From Pseudomonas svalbardensis (GTDB lineage Bacteria > Pseudomonadota > Gammaproteobacteria > Pseudomonadales > Pseudomonadaceae): a DNA stretch of 64,000 bases. The notes below the pieces were generated by a model. That model made no database searches, had not been told where the DNA came from, and saw only the letters and a program-made list of their open reading frames with translations. Positions within the stretch are counted from its first letter, which is position 1; every line of letters begins with the position of its first letter. The stretch lies in assembly GCF_030053115.1 (NCBI RefSeq), contig NZ_CP125619.1, forward strand, positions 4,785,501 through 4,849,500, read 5' to 3'. Positions 21,350 to 28,959 of this stretch are shown in pieces. A program made the translations under genes and the position numbers.

Positions 21350-22072
21350 ATGGACACGGAAAAGAAGCAATCTAGATGGACTGACGAAGAGCTAGCGGCG
21401 TCGGTCGATACCTATCTTAAAATTCTCGCTCTCGAAGAGGATGGTCAGACAGTCGACAAACCTCTTGAACAACGAATTCTGCAAGAAGGGGCATTAATCA
21501 ACCGCACCACCAAAGCCGTTGATTTCCGCCTACAGAACCTGTCGTTCCTGTTTGTTGAGTTAGGCCTGAAGCCTAATAGTTACCCCTTAATGGCGAATAT
21601 CGGGTCAGGGGTTGCAGCACGCGTCGAAATAATTCTTGCCTCGAAAGGCGTGATCGACCTTGACGACTATTTACCAACTGCGGACGAAGAGACGCTCAAC
21701 CGTCGCACTGAAAAGCTTCGAGGAAAAAAACTCCTAGGCGTGCCAGAAGGTATAGAGAAGCCAAAAAAGGTAACTGTCACCACCACCTCGTACGCTCGTT
21801 CCCCTCGGATCAAAGCCTGGATTTTGGACAATGCAAAAGGGATTTGCGAAGGTTGCGATCAGCCAGGTCCTTTCGAACAAGCTGATGGCACTCGCTTTCT
21901 TGAGGTTCACCACGTAAAGCATTTAGCAAACCGCGGATCGGATCGCCGGAGTAACGCGGTCGCGCTTTGTCCTAATTGCCATAAGCGGTGCCATCACGCC
22001 AACGACAAAGACGAATTCACTGCCACGCTTTATCAGAAGGTAGAACGATTGAAGCGTGAACAATTGGACTGA
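21350..22072 (+). CDS. HNH endonuclease
   Basis: 240 residues. The C-terminal zinc-bound HNH nuclease is clear: C166-x2-C169, then FLEVHHVKHLANRGSDRRSNAVALCPNCHKRCHH, with catalytic H187/H188, N202 and a second zinc pair C207/C210. The family includes McrA-like and other restriction nucleases. Residues 1-140 (helical, with a LINRTTKAVDFRLQNLSFL stretch) may give DNA or partner specificity. No methylase or partner gene is adjacent, so a type IV-like or homing role is possible. Base composition looks lower in GC than the flanks, suggesting acquisition. Confidence 0.8.
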   Translation: MDTEKKQSRWTDEELAASVDTYLKILALEEDGQTVDKPLEQRILQEGALINRTTKAVDFRLQNLSFLFVELGLKPNSYPLMANIGSGVAARVEIILASKGVIDLDDYLPTADEETLNRRTEKLRGKKLLGVPEGIEKPKKVTVTTTSYARSPRIKAWILDNAKGICEGCDQPGPFEQADGTRFLEVHHVKHLANRGSDRRSNAVALCPNCHKRCHHANDKDEFTATLYQKVERLKREQLD

Positions 22073-22395: not shown

Positions 22396-23319
22396 TTAAG
22401 GTCCGTGCTTGCGCTCAAGGCTGTGACCAAACCCGCGAATCACCTCCAGCAGTGCCTTCACCCGCAGCGGCAAGTTCCCGGCCGGGTACACCGCGTGCAT
22501 CTGCGGGCTGTCGCCGTTGCTGGAGGTGAGCCGGTAATCGGGGCAGACCCGGTGCAGGCGCCCCGCTTGCACTTCGGGCTCCGCCAGCCAGTCCGCCAGG
22601 CGGGCGATGCCGATGCCCGCCAGGGCGGCCTGGAACACCGCCACACCCGAGCTGAACCGAAACCCTGGATGGACCCGAACGCTGATGGCCTGCTGCTCAC
22701 TGCGGAAATTCCATTCCTTGAGGATGCGCGGCGCCGTGTGCAGGATCAGCGAGTGGTCCCCCAGCGCTTCAATGGCCTCAGGCGTCCCGCGCCGCTGCAG
22801 GTAGCCGGGGCTGGCGTACAGATGACGCGAGTAACTCCAGAGTGGATAGCCGATCAGGTCACTGGATTGCGCAAACGCGCCGCGAATCGAGAAGTCCAGC
22901 TTGCTCTTGACCGGGTCGAGGGTCTCATCGGTGAAGATCACGTCGACGTTCACGTCTGGATAACCCTCGGCGTACTGCGCGATCAGTTGCGGCAAAACAC
23001 CGTGAGCGAGGGACTCGGGGGCGGAAAAACGCACCCACCCGCTCGCCATGCCGCTGAGACCGGCCAGGTCTTCATCCGCCTCACGTTGCAATTCCAGCAT
23101 TTTGCAGGCGTGGGGCAGCAAGCGTTCACCCGCCTCCGTCAAGCTTACGGCGCTGGAGGAGCGATTAAACAACTTGACCCCGGCACTTTCCTCCAGGCCT
23201 TGAACGGCGCGGGTCAACGCACTGGGAGAGCGCCCCAGCGTGCGTGCCGCCGCGACGAAGCTGCGCTTGCGCGCTACGGTCGCGAAGGCTTCAAGCGCCC
23301 ATAACTTATCCAGAGCCAT
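22396..23319 (-). CDS. LysR-family regulator, divergent from the oxygenase operon
   Basis: 307 residues from the ATG at 23319 (MALDKLWALEAFATVARK). N-terminal winged HTH (SFVAAARTLGRSPSALTRAVQGLEE) and a C-terminal periplasmic-binding-like effector domain. It faces the 2-oxoglutarate oxygenase gene across 104 bp that contain a LysR-type palindrome, so it probably controls that operon and itself. The inducer is unknown. Longer upstream frame (440 codons) runs through the oxygenase gene and is rejected. Confidence 0.88.
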   Translation of the reverse strand: MALDKLWALEAFATVARKRSFVAAARTLGRSPSALTRAVQGLEESAGVKLFNRSSSAVSLTEAGERLLPHACKMLELQREADEDLAGLSGMASGWVRFSAPESLAHGVLPQLIAQYAEGYPDVNVDVIFTDETLDPVKSKLDFSIRGAFAQSSDLIGYPLWSYSRHLYASPGYLQRRGTPEAIEALGDHSLILHTAPRILKEWNFRSEQQAISVRVHPGFRFSSGVAVFQAALAGIGIARLADWLAEPEVQAGRLHRVCPDYRLTSSNGDSPQMHAVYPAGNLPLRVKALLEVIRGFGHSLERKHGP

Positions 23320-23330
23320 TGAACACCTCA

Positions 23331-23345
23331 TTGCATTTATCGCAA
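23331..23345. promoter_or_regulatory. LysR-type operator in divergent promoter region
   Basis: TTGCATTTATCGCAA is a perfect dyad TTGC-N7-GCAA and contains the T-N11-A core typical of LysR regulators. It lies 12 bp upstream of the regulator's ATG and about 80 bp before the oxygenase gene. Confidence 0.6.
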
Positions 23346-23423
23346 CGTGGCATTGCAACACAAAAAAGGCCCTTCCGTTAACCTTCGCGCTCAATTTACA
23401 GGGATGTAGGCAAACCGGAGCAA

Positions 23424-24515
23424 ATGGACGTGGCAAAGCTGGAAGAAATAATCGGGACATCAACGCCCACTGAGGGTGAACATATTCGTGACTGGCAGCG
23501 CAGTCACTCAGCGAGTTCAACCCGACAGGCGATACCGCAGATTCATGTCTCGTTCGAAGAGCAGCACGCGCTTCACGCCGGCCTGGCTTCCCTGGCCGTG
23601 ACCGACAGCGCCTCGGGTATCCGTCGCATGCCGGCCTTGGGGCAACTGCTTGAGAGCATCCTGCGCGGTGAAAAAATCGATCGCTTGCGCAACTTCCCCA
23701 AGGCTCCCGAGACGGCAATGATCGTCAGGGGGCTGCCCCTGGACTCGCACCTGCCCGCCACCCCCTACGATATGACGCCGGGTATCGAGCAACTGCCGGT
23801 AGTGGCCGGCGCTATCCTTGCGGTGCTGCAGACCCTGCAAACTAATCCGGTGGCCTACGAGGGTGAAAACGACGACACGGTGTTCCGCCACGTGTCGCCC
23901 AAGCACCAGCGTGAAGCCGAAAAAAGCTCCTATGGGTCGCGCATGGACCTGTGCATGCACGTCGACAACCCGCACCTGCCCTTGACCTGCGAACCTGTCT
24001 CAACGTTGTCGGCCTGTCCGGAGTACCTGTGCCTGACCGGTCTGCGCTGCGAGCCGGATGTGCCGACCCGCATCGTTGCCATTAGCGAGGTGCTGGCCAT
24101 GTTGCCCGCCTGGGTTGAAACAGCCTTGTCACAACCGCAGTTCGCCATTCACCGACCGGTGTCCTTCGGCAAGCCAGGCAATGTGCTGGAACACGTGCCC
24201 CTGCTGTACAAAAGCGCAACCGGCGAACTGTTTTGCCGTTACAACAAGGCCAGTGTCACAGCCACCTGCGCCATCGCGAAGTTGGCCCTGCAGCTGTTTG
24301 AAGCCGCCGCCAATCACCCCGATGTCGCACGCCCCATCCTGCTGCAACCGGGGGACATGCTGATCTTCAAGAACCAGCAAACCCTGCATGCCAGGGAAGG
24401 TTTTACCCCGCGCTACGACGGGCGCGACCGCTGGCTGCTGCGCGTTTTCGGGGTCAACGACCCGGCCCGCGTGCTGGCGCTGAACCCCCAACAACCCTTC
24501 ATCGCAAGAGCCTGA
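23424..24515 (+). CDS. Fe(II)/2-oxoglutarate oxygenase, clavaminate synthase-like (VioC/AsnO type)
   Basis: 363 residues. The iron triad is visible: H179-V-D181 in LCMHVDNPH and H322 in NQQTLHAREGF, with R334 or R337 for 2-oxoglutarate (PRYDGRDRWLLRVF). The region LLYKSATGELFCRYNKASV and the overall layout resemble the clavaminate synthase/VioC/AsnO group, which hydroxylate free or carrier-bound amino acids. Starts ATG after CGGAG. Its stop overlaps the next ATG (TGATG). No peptide synthetase is nearby, so a free amino acid is the likely substrate; its identity is unknown. Confidence 0.82.
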   Translation: MDVAKLEEIIGTSTPTEGEHIRDWQRSHSASSTRQAIPQIHVSFEEQHALHAGLASLAVTDSASGIRRMPALGQLLESILRGEKIDRLRNFPKAPETAMIVRGLPLDSHLPATPYDMTPGIEQLPVVAGAILAVLQTLQTNPVAYEGENDDTVFRHVSPKHQREAEKSSYGSRMDLCMHVDNPHLPLTCEPVSTLSACPEYLCLTGLRCEPDVPTRIVAISEVLAMLPAWVETALSQPQFAIHRPVSFGKPGNVLEHVPLLYKSATGELFCRYNKASVTATCAIAKLALQLFEAAANHPDVARPILLQPGDMLIFKNQQTLHAREGFTPRYDGRDRWLLRVFGVNDPARVLALNPQQPFIARA

Positions 24516-25285
24516 TGTTCATGGTCGATATTGTCATTCTTTGTGTGTTCGCCTTCGCCGCCGGCCTGATCGATGCGGCGGTGGGCGGCGGCGGCCTGAT
24601 CCAGATACCCGCGTTGTTCAACGTGCTACCCGCCGCACCACCGGCAGCACTGCTGGGGACCAACAAGGTCGCGGCCGCGTTCGGCACCGCGTTCGCGGCC
24701 CGGTCCTTCGTGCGCAAGGTGGTGATCGACTGGGGCCTGGTGATTCCAGCCGCCTGCGCCGCCTTTGTCATGGCCTTCTTCGGCGCGGCCACGGTATCGT
24801 TCGTGCCCCAGTCAGTCATGCGCCCGGCGGTGCTGGTATTGATCGTGCTCATGGCGATCTACACCTTCTGGAAAAAGGACTTCGGCGCCCTGCACGCCCC
24901 CACGCACATCGGTATCCGGCAGAAGTGGCTGGCGGTCGTCATCGGCGGCGCCATCGGTTTCTACGACGGGCTGTTCGGCCCTGGCACCGGTTCCTTCCTG
25001 ATCTTCCTGTTTATCCGCTGCTTCGCCTTCGACTTCCTGCACGCCTCGGCGTCGGCCAAGCTGGTGAACATCGCGACCAACGTGGCGGCGCTGATATTCT
25101 TCATCCCGACAGGGAACGTGCTGTACCTGATCGCCCTCCCCATGGCGGCCTTCAACATCCTGGGCGCGTTGACCGGCACCTGGCTGGCGGTGCGTAAAGG
25201 CGTGCCCTTTGTCCGGGCGCTGTTTCTGGTGTTGCTGGTGATTCTGATCAGCAAACTGTCCTACGACCTGTTGCTGAAAACCTGA
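24515..25285 (+). CDS. TauE/SafE-family membrane exporter
   Basis: 256 residues, about eight hydrophobic helices, with the family repeats GLIDAAVGGGGLIQIPAL near the N-terminus and GFYDGLFGPGTGSFLIF in the second half. The family moves small anions such as sulfite, sulfoacetate or other organic compounds. Translationally coupled to the oxygenase and followed 9 bp later by a YbaK gene, so it may carry the product or substrate of the oxygenase. A second, distinct member lies at 28.1 kb. Confidence 0.88.
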   Translation: MFMVDIVILCVFAFAAGLIDAAVGGGGLIQIPALFNVLPAAPPAALLGTNKVAAAFGTAFAARSFVRKVVIDWGLVIPAACAAFVMAFFGAATVSFVPQSVMRPAVLVLIVLMAIYTFWKKDFGALHAPTHIGIRQKWLAVVIGGAIGFYDGLFGPGTGSFLIFLFIRCFAFDFLHASASAKLVNIATNVAALIFFIPTGNVLYLIALPMAAFNILGALTGTWLAVRKGVPFVRALFLVLLVILISKLSYDLLLKT

Positions 25286-25294
25286 GGAAAGCCC

Positions 25295-25774
25295 ATGCAG
25301 CCCATGTTTGATCGCCTGGTGGCGCTACTCGATGCCCACGCCGCCGCCTATCGGGTGTTGATGCACGATGCCGAGGGCCAGTCGGCGCGGGTCGCCGAAC
25401 TCCGTGGCACCGAACCCGGCCAAGGCGCGAAAGCCATGCTCTGCGCGCTAAAGGGTCAGGCCGAACCCTATGCCCTGGTGATACTGCCAGGGGACCAGAG
25501 GCTCGACATGAAGAAAGTCGGAGCGGCCCTGGGAGGAAAAAAAGCCGAGCTGGTGAACGCGCAAACTGCCATGCAACTGACCGGGTGCAGGATCGGCGCC
25601 ATCCCTCCGTTTACCTTCGATGAGAGGATTCAATTGATCGTCGACCCGTCCCTGATCACGGGCTACGGCGAAATCGCCTTCAACGCCGGTCGGCTGGATG
25701 CATCAATGGTGCTCGATACGCAGGATTACCTGTCGATTGCCAAGCCCCGGTTGGTGGATATCCGCCAGGGTTGA
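25295..25774 (+). CDS. YbaK/ProX-type aminoacyl-tRNA deacylase domain protein
   Basis: 159 residues, single editing domain. Typical elements: TEPGQGAKAMLCAL with the conserved Lys, LDMKKVGAALGGKKAELV and TGCRIGAIPPFTF. Members hydrolyse misacylated tRNAs in trans (Ala-, Cys-, Ser-tRNA and others). It is third in the operon with an amino-acid-type oxygenase and an exporter. It may clear tRNA charged with a non-protein amino acid, which is inference. Ribosome site GGAAAG before the ATG. Confidence 0.85.
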   Translation: MQPMFDRLVALLDAHAAAYRVLMHDAEGQSARVAELRGTEPGQGAKAMLCALKGQAEPYALVILPGDQRLDMKKVGAALGGKKAELVNAQTAMQLTGCRIGAIPPFTFDERIQLIVDPSLITGYGEIAFNAGRLDASMVLDTQDYLSIAKPRLVDIRQG

Positions 25775-25937: not shown

Positions 25938-26927
25938 ATGAAATTCGACCTCGCCTACTGCCTCAGCCTCGACGACAAGCTGTCGATCTATGACGTGCGC
26001 GATTTGAATTTCGACGAGACGATGGATTTCGATTCCGCCAAGGAACACTTCCAGTGCCCCATCGATGCCTGCCGGGCGGCGTTTGATGCGGCGAATGTGT
26101 TGACGACGTTCAACGCCAAAAACGTGAATTACGTGCGCACCCCGCACTTCAAGAACACGCCCAGCACTCGGCATGTTGCGGATTGTCCTTATGTCAGTCT
26201 CAAGACGTCGGCGTCAGGTGTGGACGCGGACGGTGCGGAAACGGATGACAGTCGCGAGGAGCATTTCCCGTCGGAGTTGTTGCTGACGCGGCGTGAGTAT
26301 GTGCGTAAACCGTCGAACCCGGCGGTGGCGGCTGACGTGATGCGGGACGATCCGAAACCCTCTTCAGCGGCCAGTGACGTCGATCACCCAAGCCGCGAAT
26401 CAGCACCAGACAAGACCAGTGTCTTCGCCCACCCGGTGGAGTGTTTTGTGTCGAACTTCGAGGACAAGGAGTTGCTCAAGCGCATGCCGCTGAAGATTGG
26501 CGAGCACACGGCGCCTTATGGGTCGTTCTTCAAGAAGATCGAGTATCTGCAGGACCACAAGGGGCTGATTTACTGGGGCAAGATCAAGAAGATCGAGGAT
26601 TACCACAGCGCAAGTTTTCGCATCGACTTCGAACAGAAGGTCTGGTTCAAGCAACCGGACGAGGCGAAGAAGAAGCCTTATTCAGTCAATGTTTACCTGA
26701 GCAAAAAGCTGATCGACAACTACCGCAAGCGCAAAGCGTTTCTGGAAGAGATCAAGCACGCAATCGAGAGTGAAAAAGAGTTGTTTTGCTTTTTCTATGG
26801 TGTGACGCCGGGGTTGAAGCAGGTGCCGAGCAAGAAAAACCCCGAGCAAATGTTCGGGGTGTTCAGTGCGAATATTGAGAACCTGGATCACTTCATTATT
26901 CGTGAGGCGCCGGGGCTCAAAGGTTAA
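25938..26927 (+). CDS. Protein of unknown function with N-terminal zinc-type motif
   Basis: 329 residues. The N-terminal 90 residues carry C40-x4-C45-x24-H70-x8-H79-x3-C83, a plausible zinc site (FQCPIDACRAAF then HFKNTPSTRHVADCPY). Residues about 90-165 are acidic, Pro/Ser-rich and likely disordered. Residues about 170-329 are Lys/Phe-rich with alternating strands (LIYWGKIKKIEDYHSASFRIDFEQKVWF), suggesting a nucleic-acid-binding or nuclease-associated fold, but I do not recognise the family. It converges on the DUF6933-like pair. The zinc layout is reminiscent of CoiA-like proteins, which is weak evidence. Confidence 0.6.
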   Translation: MKFDLAYCLSLDDKLSIYDVRDLNFDETMDFDSAKEHFQCPIDACRAAFDAANVLTTFNAKNVNYVRTPHFKNTPSTRHVADCPYVSLKTSASGVDADGAETDDSREEHFPSELLLTRREYVRKPSNPAVAADVMRDDPKPSSAASDVDHPSRESAPDKTSVFAHPVECFVSNFEDKELLKRMPLKIGEHTAPYGSFFKKIEYLQDHKGLIYWGKIKKIEDYHSASFRIDFEQKVWFKQPDEAKKKPYSVNVYLSKKLIDNYRKRKAFLEEIKHAIESEKELFCFFYGVTPGLKQVPSKKNPEQMFGVFSANIENLDHFIIREAPGLKG

Positions 26928-28143: not shown

Positions 28144-28959
28144 TTAGTTGCCCCACATACTCAGCATCACAAACATCAGCAAACCGATATAGACCCGCGC
28201 ATGGGTTCGATCCGGTATCCGCCCAATCCACGGCGCAGCCAACCGAATCCCAACCAGCGACCCGACCGTCAAAATCGCAAACGCCAGCACATCCACATAA
28301 CCGATAAACCACGGCCCCAGATCAAACTTGGTGAACCCAGCCATCGCCATGTAAGTCAGCGTCCCGGCCAGCGCCACGGGCAAACTGAGCGGATTGGCCA
28401 TGGACGTCGCCTGGGACATGCTCAGCCCGCAACGCCGCAACAACGGCACGGTCATGACGCTGCCGCCTACGCCGAGAAACGTGGCGATGGTGCCGATTCC
28501 TACGCCCCCGCCAGACACTTCTGCCCTTCCCAATCGCCGTGGGACTGCGGTGTCGGACGCTGTAAGAAAGCCGCGTCGTAACAGGCAATCCGCGATGGTC
28601 ACTCCCAGGTACGCGATGAAGGCATAGCGAATCACTTCGCCACTCACCCACATCGCCGAGACGGCACCGACGATCGCGCCCAAGCCGATGAACCCGCCCA
28701 ACGGCCACAGGTAATGGCGAATGAGGTTTCCGGCGCGACGGTGTTTTCCGGTGGCGATCGTTGCGTTGACGATCATGACGCAGGTCGAGGTTGCCACAGC
28801 AATGTGCATTGCCGATTGGCCGACGGGGTCGTCTGTGCCGTGGCTGGCCATGAGCATGCGGTACAGCAATGGCACGACGACGAAGCCGCCGCCGAAGCCG
28901 AACAGCACCGCGGTGATGCCGGTCATGCAGCCGAAGAGTGCCAGCAGGAGATAGAGCAT
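28144..28959 (-). CDS. TauE/SafE-family membrane exporter
   Basis: 271 residues, about eight transmembrane helices, with FGFGGGFVVVPLLYRML near the start and GIGTIATFLGVGGSVMTVPLL in the second half, the duplicated signature of the family. Probably exports a small anion. Divergent from an AraC-type regulator, which likely controls it. Distinct from the exporter at 24.5 kb. Confidence 0.88.
   Translation of the reverse strand: MLYLLLALFGCMTGITAVLFGFGGGFVVVPLLYRMLMASHGTDDPVGQSAMHIAVATSTCVMIVNATIATGKHRRAGNLIRHYLWPLGGFIGLGAIVGAVSAMWVSGEVIRYAFIAYLGVTIADCLLRRGFLTASDTAVPRRLGRAEVSGGGVGIGTIATFLGVGGSVMTVPLLRRCGLSMSQATSMANPLSLPVALAGTLTYMAMAGFTKFDLGPWFIGYVDVLAFAILTVGSLVGIRLAAPWIGRIPDRTHARVYIGLLMFVMLSMWGN

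Follow-up and report, generated by a model that had tools for sequence, protein, structure and literature searches.

In Streptomyces cattleya and Streptomyces sp. MA37, a deacylase and an exporter, encoded by fthB and fthC, are reported to guard the producer of 4-fluorothreonine, a beta-hydroxy amino acid (PMC7408626). The IDO operon of Bacillus thuringiensis and the Hil operon of Pantoea/Pseudomonas are described as joining a free-amino-acid hydroxylase to an exporter, in Hil together with a LysR regulator, and the authors of that work already propose self-detoxification (PMC3684760). Here we analyze a 64,000-nucleotide stretch (the window) of the 6.36-Mb single-contig chromosome of Pseudomonas svalbardensis, which carries a LysR-type regulator divergent from genes for an Fe(II)/2-oxoglutarate oxygenase, a TauE/SafE permease and a stand-alone aminoacyl-tRNA editing deacylase. 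With moderate confidence, we read this operon as one for making a beta-hydroxy amino acid and secreting it, comprising a free-amino-acid hydroxylase, an exporter of its product and a YeaK-like deacylase whose editing protects the producer.

A three-gene cassette conserved in Pseudomonas

The sequence-only reading of the window had described a LysR gene facing three tightly packed genes, and all four open reading frames (ORFs) were confirmed. The regulator (22396-23319, minus strand) matches Pfam LysR_substrate with 115 bits (cut-off 28) and HTH_1 with 68 bits (cut-off 26.6). On the plus strand lie the oxygenase of the clavaminate-synthase-like (CSL) family (23430-24515; Pfam TauD, 38.7 bits, cut-off 27), the TauE/SafE permease, a putative exporter (24515-25285; Pfam TauE PF01925, 161.9 bits, cut-off 32.6), and the editing domain of the YeaK/ProXp-ST1 kind (25295-25774; Pfam tRNA_edit, 88.6 bits, cut-off 25.5).

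The cassette was compared across 31 loci, comprising the window and 30 named Pseudomonas loci with a full oxygenase (L011-L040); an extra locus, L041, has a wrecked oxygenase. TauE and then the deacylase follow the oxygenase in every one of the 31, and the trio is intact in 30. The remaining locus, L014, belongs to a draft genome of 78% completeness and apparently lies on the contig of L126 (G329); its TauE and deacylase genes are each broken across two frames, which may reflect sequencing error or decay. Spacing between oxygenase and TauE ranges from -1 to +5 nt in 30 of 31 loci (L014 was excluded for its broken frames; L012 measures +5 from the ATG, its computed -1 having used a non-start codon), and between TauE and the deacylase from 9 to 24 nt in all 31. 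A LysR orthologue stands ahead of the oxygenase in 30 of the 31 loci; L037 has none, and in L031 the gene is truncated by the contig end. We searched 524 picked ORFs, each 100 aa or longer, against all 31 stretches with tblastn, requiring 40% identity or more across 60% of the query for a match and setting aside the cassette genes and ORFs antisense to them. The most widely shared of the other neighbors occurs in 8 of the 31 loci, which bears out the expected co-occurrence of the three families without other widely shared neighbors. The gene grouping exceeds chance.

A sample of 398 Pseudomonas genomes, rather than a full census of the genus, contains 43 oxygenase matches in 41 genomes. By identity these form clade 1 (23 matches, 61-100%), clade 2 (13 matches, 40-44%) and clade 3 (7 matches, 28-31%). 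The deacylase query matches 28 of the 398 genomes at E <= 1e-25. In 21 of the 23 clade-1 genomes the deacylase lies 781-797 nt from the oxygenase, the exceptions being G354 and G402, and it is present in 7 of the 375 genomes that lack a clade-1 oxygenase. Fisher's exact test on these counts (21/2/7/368) gives 6e-27, a value that is descriptive only because the genomes are related. The sequence-only reading had named an oxygenase occurring mostly without the deacylase as evidence against itself; this is the situation of the more distant oxygenases but not of the orthologues. Protein distances also correlate between the cassette genes (r 0.76-0.91 across 28 loci in which all four genes are intact; 0.88 for oxygenase and deacylase), and for no pair did any of 500 Mantel permutations attain the observed value. 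The oxygenase changes fastest, with a mean protein distance of 0.203, and TauE slowest, with 0.060.

The divergent promoter contains the palindrome TTGCATTTATCGCAA (TTGC-N7-GCAA) at 23331-23345, which we take to be of the LysR T-N11-A kind. Of 32 promoter regions aligned, 31 carry a TTGC..CAA motif, and the remaining one, from L014, is shortened. The palindrome is likely the LysR operator. The same alignment bears on the oxygenase start, which the sequence-only reading had placed at ATG 23424. In 26 of the 32 regions the start is the codon equal to GTG 23430 and the upstream ATG does not exist; moreover, a GGAG at 23417-23420 lies 9 nt ahead of the GTG and merely 3 nt ahead of the ATG. Translation therefore probably begins at GTG 23430, giving a protein of 361 aa. 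TauE probably starts at ATG 24521, the codon equivalent to the start in most relatives (24 of 35 loci scanned open with MVDIV). This start leaves a 5-nt gap after the oxygenase, so the tight packing noted earlier stands while the 1-nt overlap between the two genes probably does not.

The cassette is flanked by an HNH gene (21350-22072) on the LysR side and, on its far side, by a gene at 25938-26927 that has no Pfam match at E <= 0.001; among L011-L040, a relative of the latter adjoins the cassette only in L011-L014. A search of the four cassette proteins against PADLOC for anti-phage defense returned no match at E <= 0.001.

Oxygenase and deacylase families

The oxygenase is a member of the CSL free-amino-acid hydroxylase family by fold and residues. 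Its fold matches that of CSL oxygenases, and an alignment of 32 proteins shows the iron triad H179, D181 and H322, of which both histidines are invariant and the aspartate is kept in at least 90%. Also invariant are R336 (position P18, 2-oxoglutarate) and R340 (P19, substrate carboxylate), at +14 and +18 from the second histidine as in KDO1, and E148 (P2, alpha-amino group of the substrate), which aligns with the glutamate of AsnO and KDO1. In CSL free-amino-acid hydroxylases, residues of this kind hold the alpha-amino and carboxylate groups of the substrate (PMC6224419). These features place the enzyme in the clavaminate synthase/VioC/AsnO group, as proposed from the sequence alone, and nearest to AsnO, the free L-asparagine oxygenase, which is both its best profile match and its top fold match and shares its iron, 2-oxoglutarate and substrate-anchoring residues. 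The two differ in that they are 26% identical, AsnO has HxE in place of HxD, and the window protein has Asn274 instead of Asp at P15 as well as an extra stretch past the HxD motif. The arginine found at P3 in CSL C4-hydroxylases of the KDO5 kind was not found; Asn149 follows Glu148, with Ser in some relatives. The substrate would be a free amino acid whose side chain bears no charge, hydroxylated at C3.

The deacylase had been taken for a YbaK-type protein, an assignment that we reject on model cut-offs, BLASTP identities and the protein tree. By BLASTP the protein shares 46% identity with E. coli YeaK and 26% with YbaK of the same species (45% and 28% when aligned), and it falls short of both YbaK models, TIGR00011 (66.8 of 153.25 bits) and PRK10670 (50 of 243 bits), as E. 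coli YeaK itself does. A separate YbaK, 60% identical to the E. coli protein, is encoded in the same genome (L127), where a search with YeaK finds the cassette copy and otherwise one marginal match (E 0.008). The cassette deacylases group into one clade (support 99/97) in a 47-protein tree, next to the copies of L120-L123. Judged by its sequence, the protein is YeaK/ProXp-ST1-like, a placement made against YeaK and YbaK as references. The K-12 yeaK gene, whose product shares common blocks with the cassette deacylase, has dgcJ and yoaI as its neighbors, and neither an oxygenase nor a TauE is annotated in the 17 kb inspected around it, whereas the cassette copy is operon-bound.

The gene yeaK is reported to encode ProXp-ST1 (PMC7603204). 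ProXp-ST1 and ProXp-ST2 are described as hydrolyzing Ser- and Thr-tRNAs, and FthB, which clears fluorothreonyl-tRNA, as ProXp-ST1-related (PMC11295145). A deacylase of this kind fits a beta-hydroxy product better than a YbaK-type enzyme would, and its position beside a likely beta-hydroxylase is the strongest mechanistic hint at the locus. A more distant YeaK-type deacylase (42-43%) was seen at L124:8676-10413, divergent from a gene of the ornithine-cyclodeaminase/mu-crystallin family.

The permease has no PDB sequence match at E <= 1; it would export the operon product. A second TauE/SafE permease is encoded about 2.4 kb past the cassette (28144-28959, minus strand; PF01925, 127 bits).

Oxygenase loss and sister operons

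Two lineages have lost the oxygenase and kept the rest of the cassette. In P. gingeri G9001 (L041; L118, from G083, is the same DNA), a piece that we take to resemble the start of an AMP-binding enzyme, sits inside the oxygenase gene. Relative to three kin, the remnants have drifted to 82-85% nucleotide identity in the final 417 nt and to 72-80% in the rest. The other three genes retain 91-95% (two kin), and intact oxygenases among the kin are about 92% identical. The oxygenase of G351 (L119) has lost its middle by deletion, and pieces of about 177 and 91 nt survive at 90-93% identity.

LysR, TauE and the deacylase remain open and constrained in both lineages. The ratio of non-synonymous to synonymous substitution rates (dN/dS) of the deacylase is 0.02-0.09 (n=4) in one and 0-0.14 (n=6) in the other, against 0.03-0.14 (n=7) in matched intact pairs. 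For TauE the values are 0.08-0.13 in the lineages with oxygenase loss and 0.04-0.07 in intact pairs, so that slight relaxation is possible. Eight more comparisons at other loci gave a wider spread, 0.04-0.19 for TauE and 0.10-0.24 for the deacylase, except for the window against L011, where the deacylase has four non-synonymous changes and one synonymous change. Purifying selection on regulator, exporter and deacylase after oxygenase loss is as expected of an immunity part.

The more distant oxygenases occur in other settings. All nine clade-2 loci fetched (of 13) encode, in this order, a MocR-type regulator, a divergent oxygenase, a TauE with 34-35% identity to that of the window, and a short-chain dehydrogenase/reductase (SDR). 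For one of these SDRs the best NCBIfam model is the 3-hydroxy acid dehydrogenase YdfG (325 bits, below the cut-off of 411). The 3-hydroxy-acid SDR of one branch and the Ser/Thr-type deacylase of another are both pointers to a beta-hydroxy amino acid. Oxygenase and TauE look like the older pair, with a variable third gene. Another oxygenase paired with TauE was observed at L115:6544-9284, where an alpha/beta hydrolase gene comes next, and at L116:7361-9256.

In all five clade-3 loci fetched (of 7; L109-L113, for example L110:4392-12712), the oxygenase adjoins relatives of carbamoyltransferase, Haem_oxygenas_2 and ATP-grasp families, named from L110, and the ATP-grasp protein is L-amino-acid-ligase-like. 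These surroundings, also seen in L155, are a candidate amino-acid or dipeptide biosynthetic cluster, with an SDR close by in L110 and L113.

Beyond the genus, a sample of 398 genomes of the phylum contains seven with an oxygenase profile match at E <= 1e-30, and the window's own oxygenase is the only one that scores like clade 1 (512 bits, against at most 205 for the rest). Queries with TauE, the deacylase and the sister TauE found nothing at E <= 1e-6 in five of the six non-window contexts, the contig of L156 being just 7.6 kb long. One of those five (L155, G660) is a cluster of the clade-3 kind.

Proposed function and comparison with known systems

We propose that LysR would turn the operon on in response to some signal and that the oxygenase would hydroxylate a free amino acid, likely at the beta position. 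TauE would carry the hydroxylated product out of the cell. The deacylase would clear it from mischarged tRNA, probably as a Ser/Thr-like mimic, and so would keep it out of the maker's own proteins. The product could go further and act as a weapon: a Thr or Ser mimic made by one enzyme from a common amino acid would be secreted and poison neighbors by mistranslation, with exporter and deacylase as an immunity module. Non-producing relatives would then keep these two genes as bacteriocin immunity genes are kept. We regard such an antimetabolite role as possible but tentative.

Several observations weigh against production with self-protection. G354 and G402, a pair placed basally in clade 1 at an open fork of the tree, a position compatible with late gain or with loss of the deacylase, have the oxygenase without the deacylase, and in G402 the initial portion of TauE lies out of frame. 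No deacylase-like gene was detected by tblastn (E <= 1) at the 20 loci L098-L117, which comprise G354, G402, nine of the 13 clade-2 matches, five of the seven clade-3 matches and four more distant ones. Conversely, the nearest non-cassette deacylases (about 73% identity; G390, G285, G074 and G306) occur without a clade-1 oxygenase, so that this type of deacylase has at least two genomic contexts. At all four loci (L120-L123) a flavin-reductase-like gene, an SDR and a different LysR are close by (for example L123:6651-9632). The flavin-reductase-like gene immediately precedes the deacylase in L122 and L123, and in L120 and L121 it lies about 2.2 kb ahead.

The persistence of exporter and deacylase beyond the oxygenase also fits defense against outside compounds, in which LysR would sense an incoming toxic amino acid, the oxygenase would make it harmless, TauE would expel it and the deacylase would clean mischarged tRNA. 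A stand-alone editing protein beside a Pseudomonas canavanine-utilization operon is reported (PMC10018355), and no further biosynthetic gene is common to the loci. We nevertheless consider such detoxification unlikely, given that a degrading enzyme should be kept and the oxygenase is the part lost, that the usual job of its family is biosynthetic (AsnO, VioC, CmnC), and that the clade-3 sisters lie in a biosynthetic-looking cluster. If oxygenase and TauE alone form the functional pair, the deacylase could be a general Ser/Thr editing enzyme co-transcribed by chance. Such housekeeping activity is described for E. coli ProXp-ST1 (PMC11295145), and oxygenase-TauE pairs stand without a deacylase in the fetched clade-2 loci, L115, L116 and G354. 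Yet a housekeeping gene should be widespread rather than confined to so few genomes of the genus, and this one tracks the oxygenase both in presence and in protein distance, which makes chance co-transcription improbable. The Pfam names TauD and TauE, both of taurine families, would suit a sulfonate or other small acid as substrate, with TauE exporting in its classical role. We hold this to be very improbable: fold and profile are clavaminate-synthase-like, Glu148 and Arg340 stand where the family binds the alpha-amino and carboxylate groups, and a tRNA-editing partner would make no sense for a sulfonate.

If production with self-protection is correct, translational proofreading has been recruited as antibiotic immunity in Gram-negative bacteria. 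The combination of CSL oxygenase, exporter and YeaK-type deacylase would then be a genome signature for amino-acid antimetabolites, exposing products otherwise hidden because their clusters have one biosynthetic gene, and the specificity of the deacylase would also indicate the nature of the product.

No published description of the oxygenase/TauE/deacylase combination was found in the literature searched, which largely excluded subscription papers. The canavanyl-tRNA deacylase CtdA is likewise described as a Pseudomonas editing enzyme that stands alone and is linked to a non-protein amino acid, but it has a PheRS B3/4 editing domain and serves utilization, not synthesis (PMC10018355). The IDO and Hil operons differ in their oxygenase families (PF10014 and PF13640), their RhtA/MFS exporters and an SDR, with no tRNA-editing gene among those listed in that account; their closer analogue is the clade-2 sister operon of oxygenase, TauE and SDR. 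With fthB/fthC the cassette shares an INS-superfamily deacylase and an exporter, FthB being likened by its published description. There the amino acid comes from a fluorometabolite pathway, whereas in Pseudomonas it is the predicted product of a 2-oxoglutarate oxygenase, export falls to a TauE/SafE permease and all three genes share a single operon linked to LysR. Here the deacylase and exporter are linked to an oxygenase gene, whose product would be the amino-acid maker. The protection logic is already known from fthB/fthC, and its combination with a clavaminate-synthase-like oxygenase is the apparently new part.

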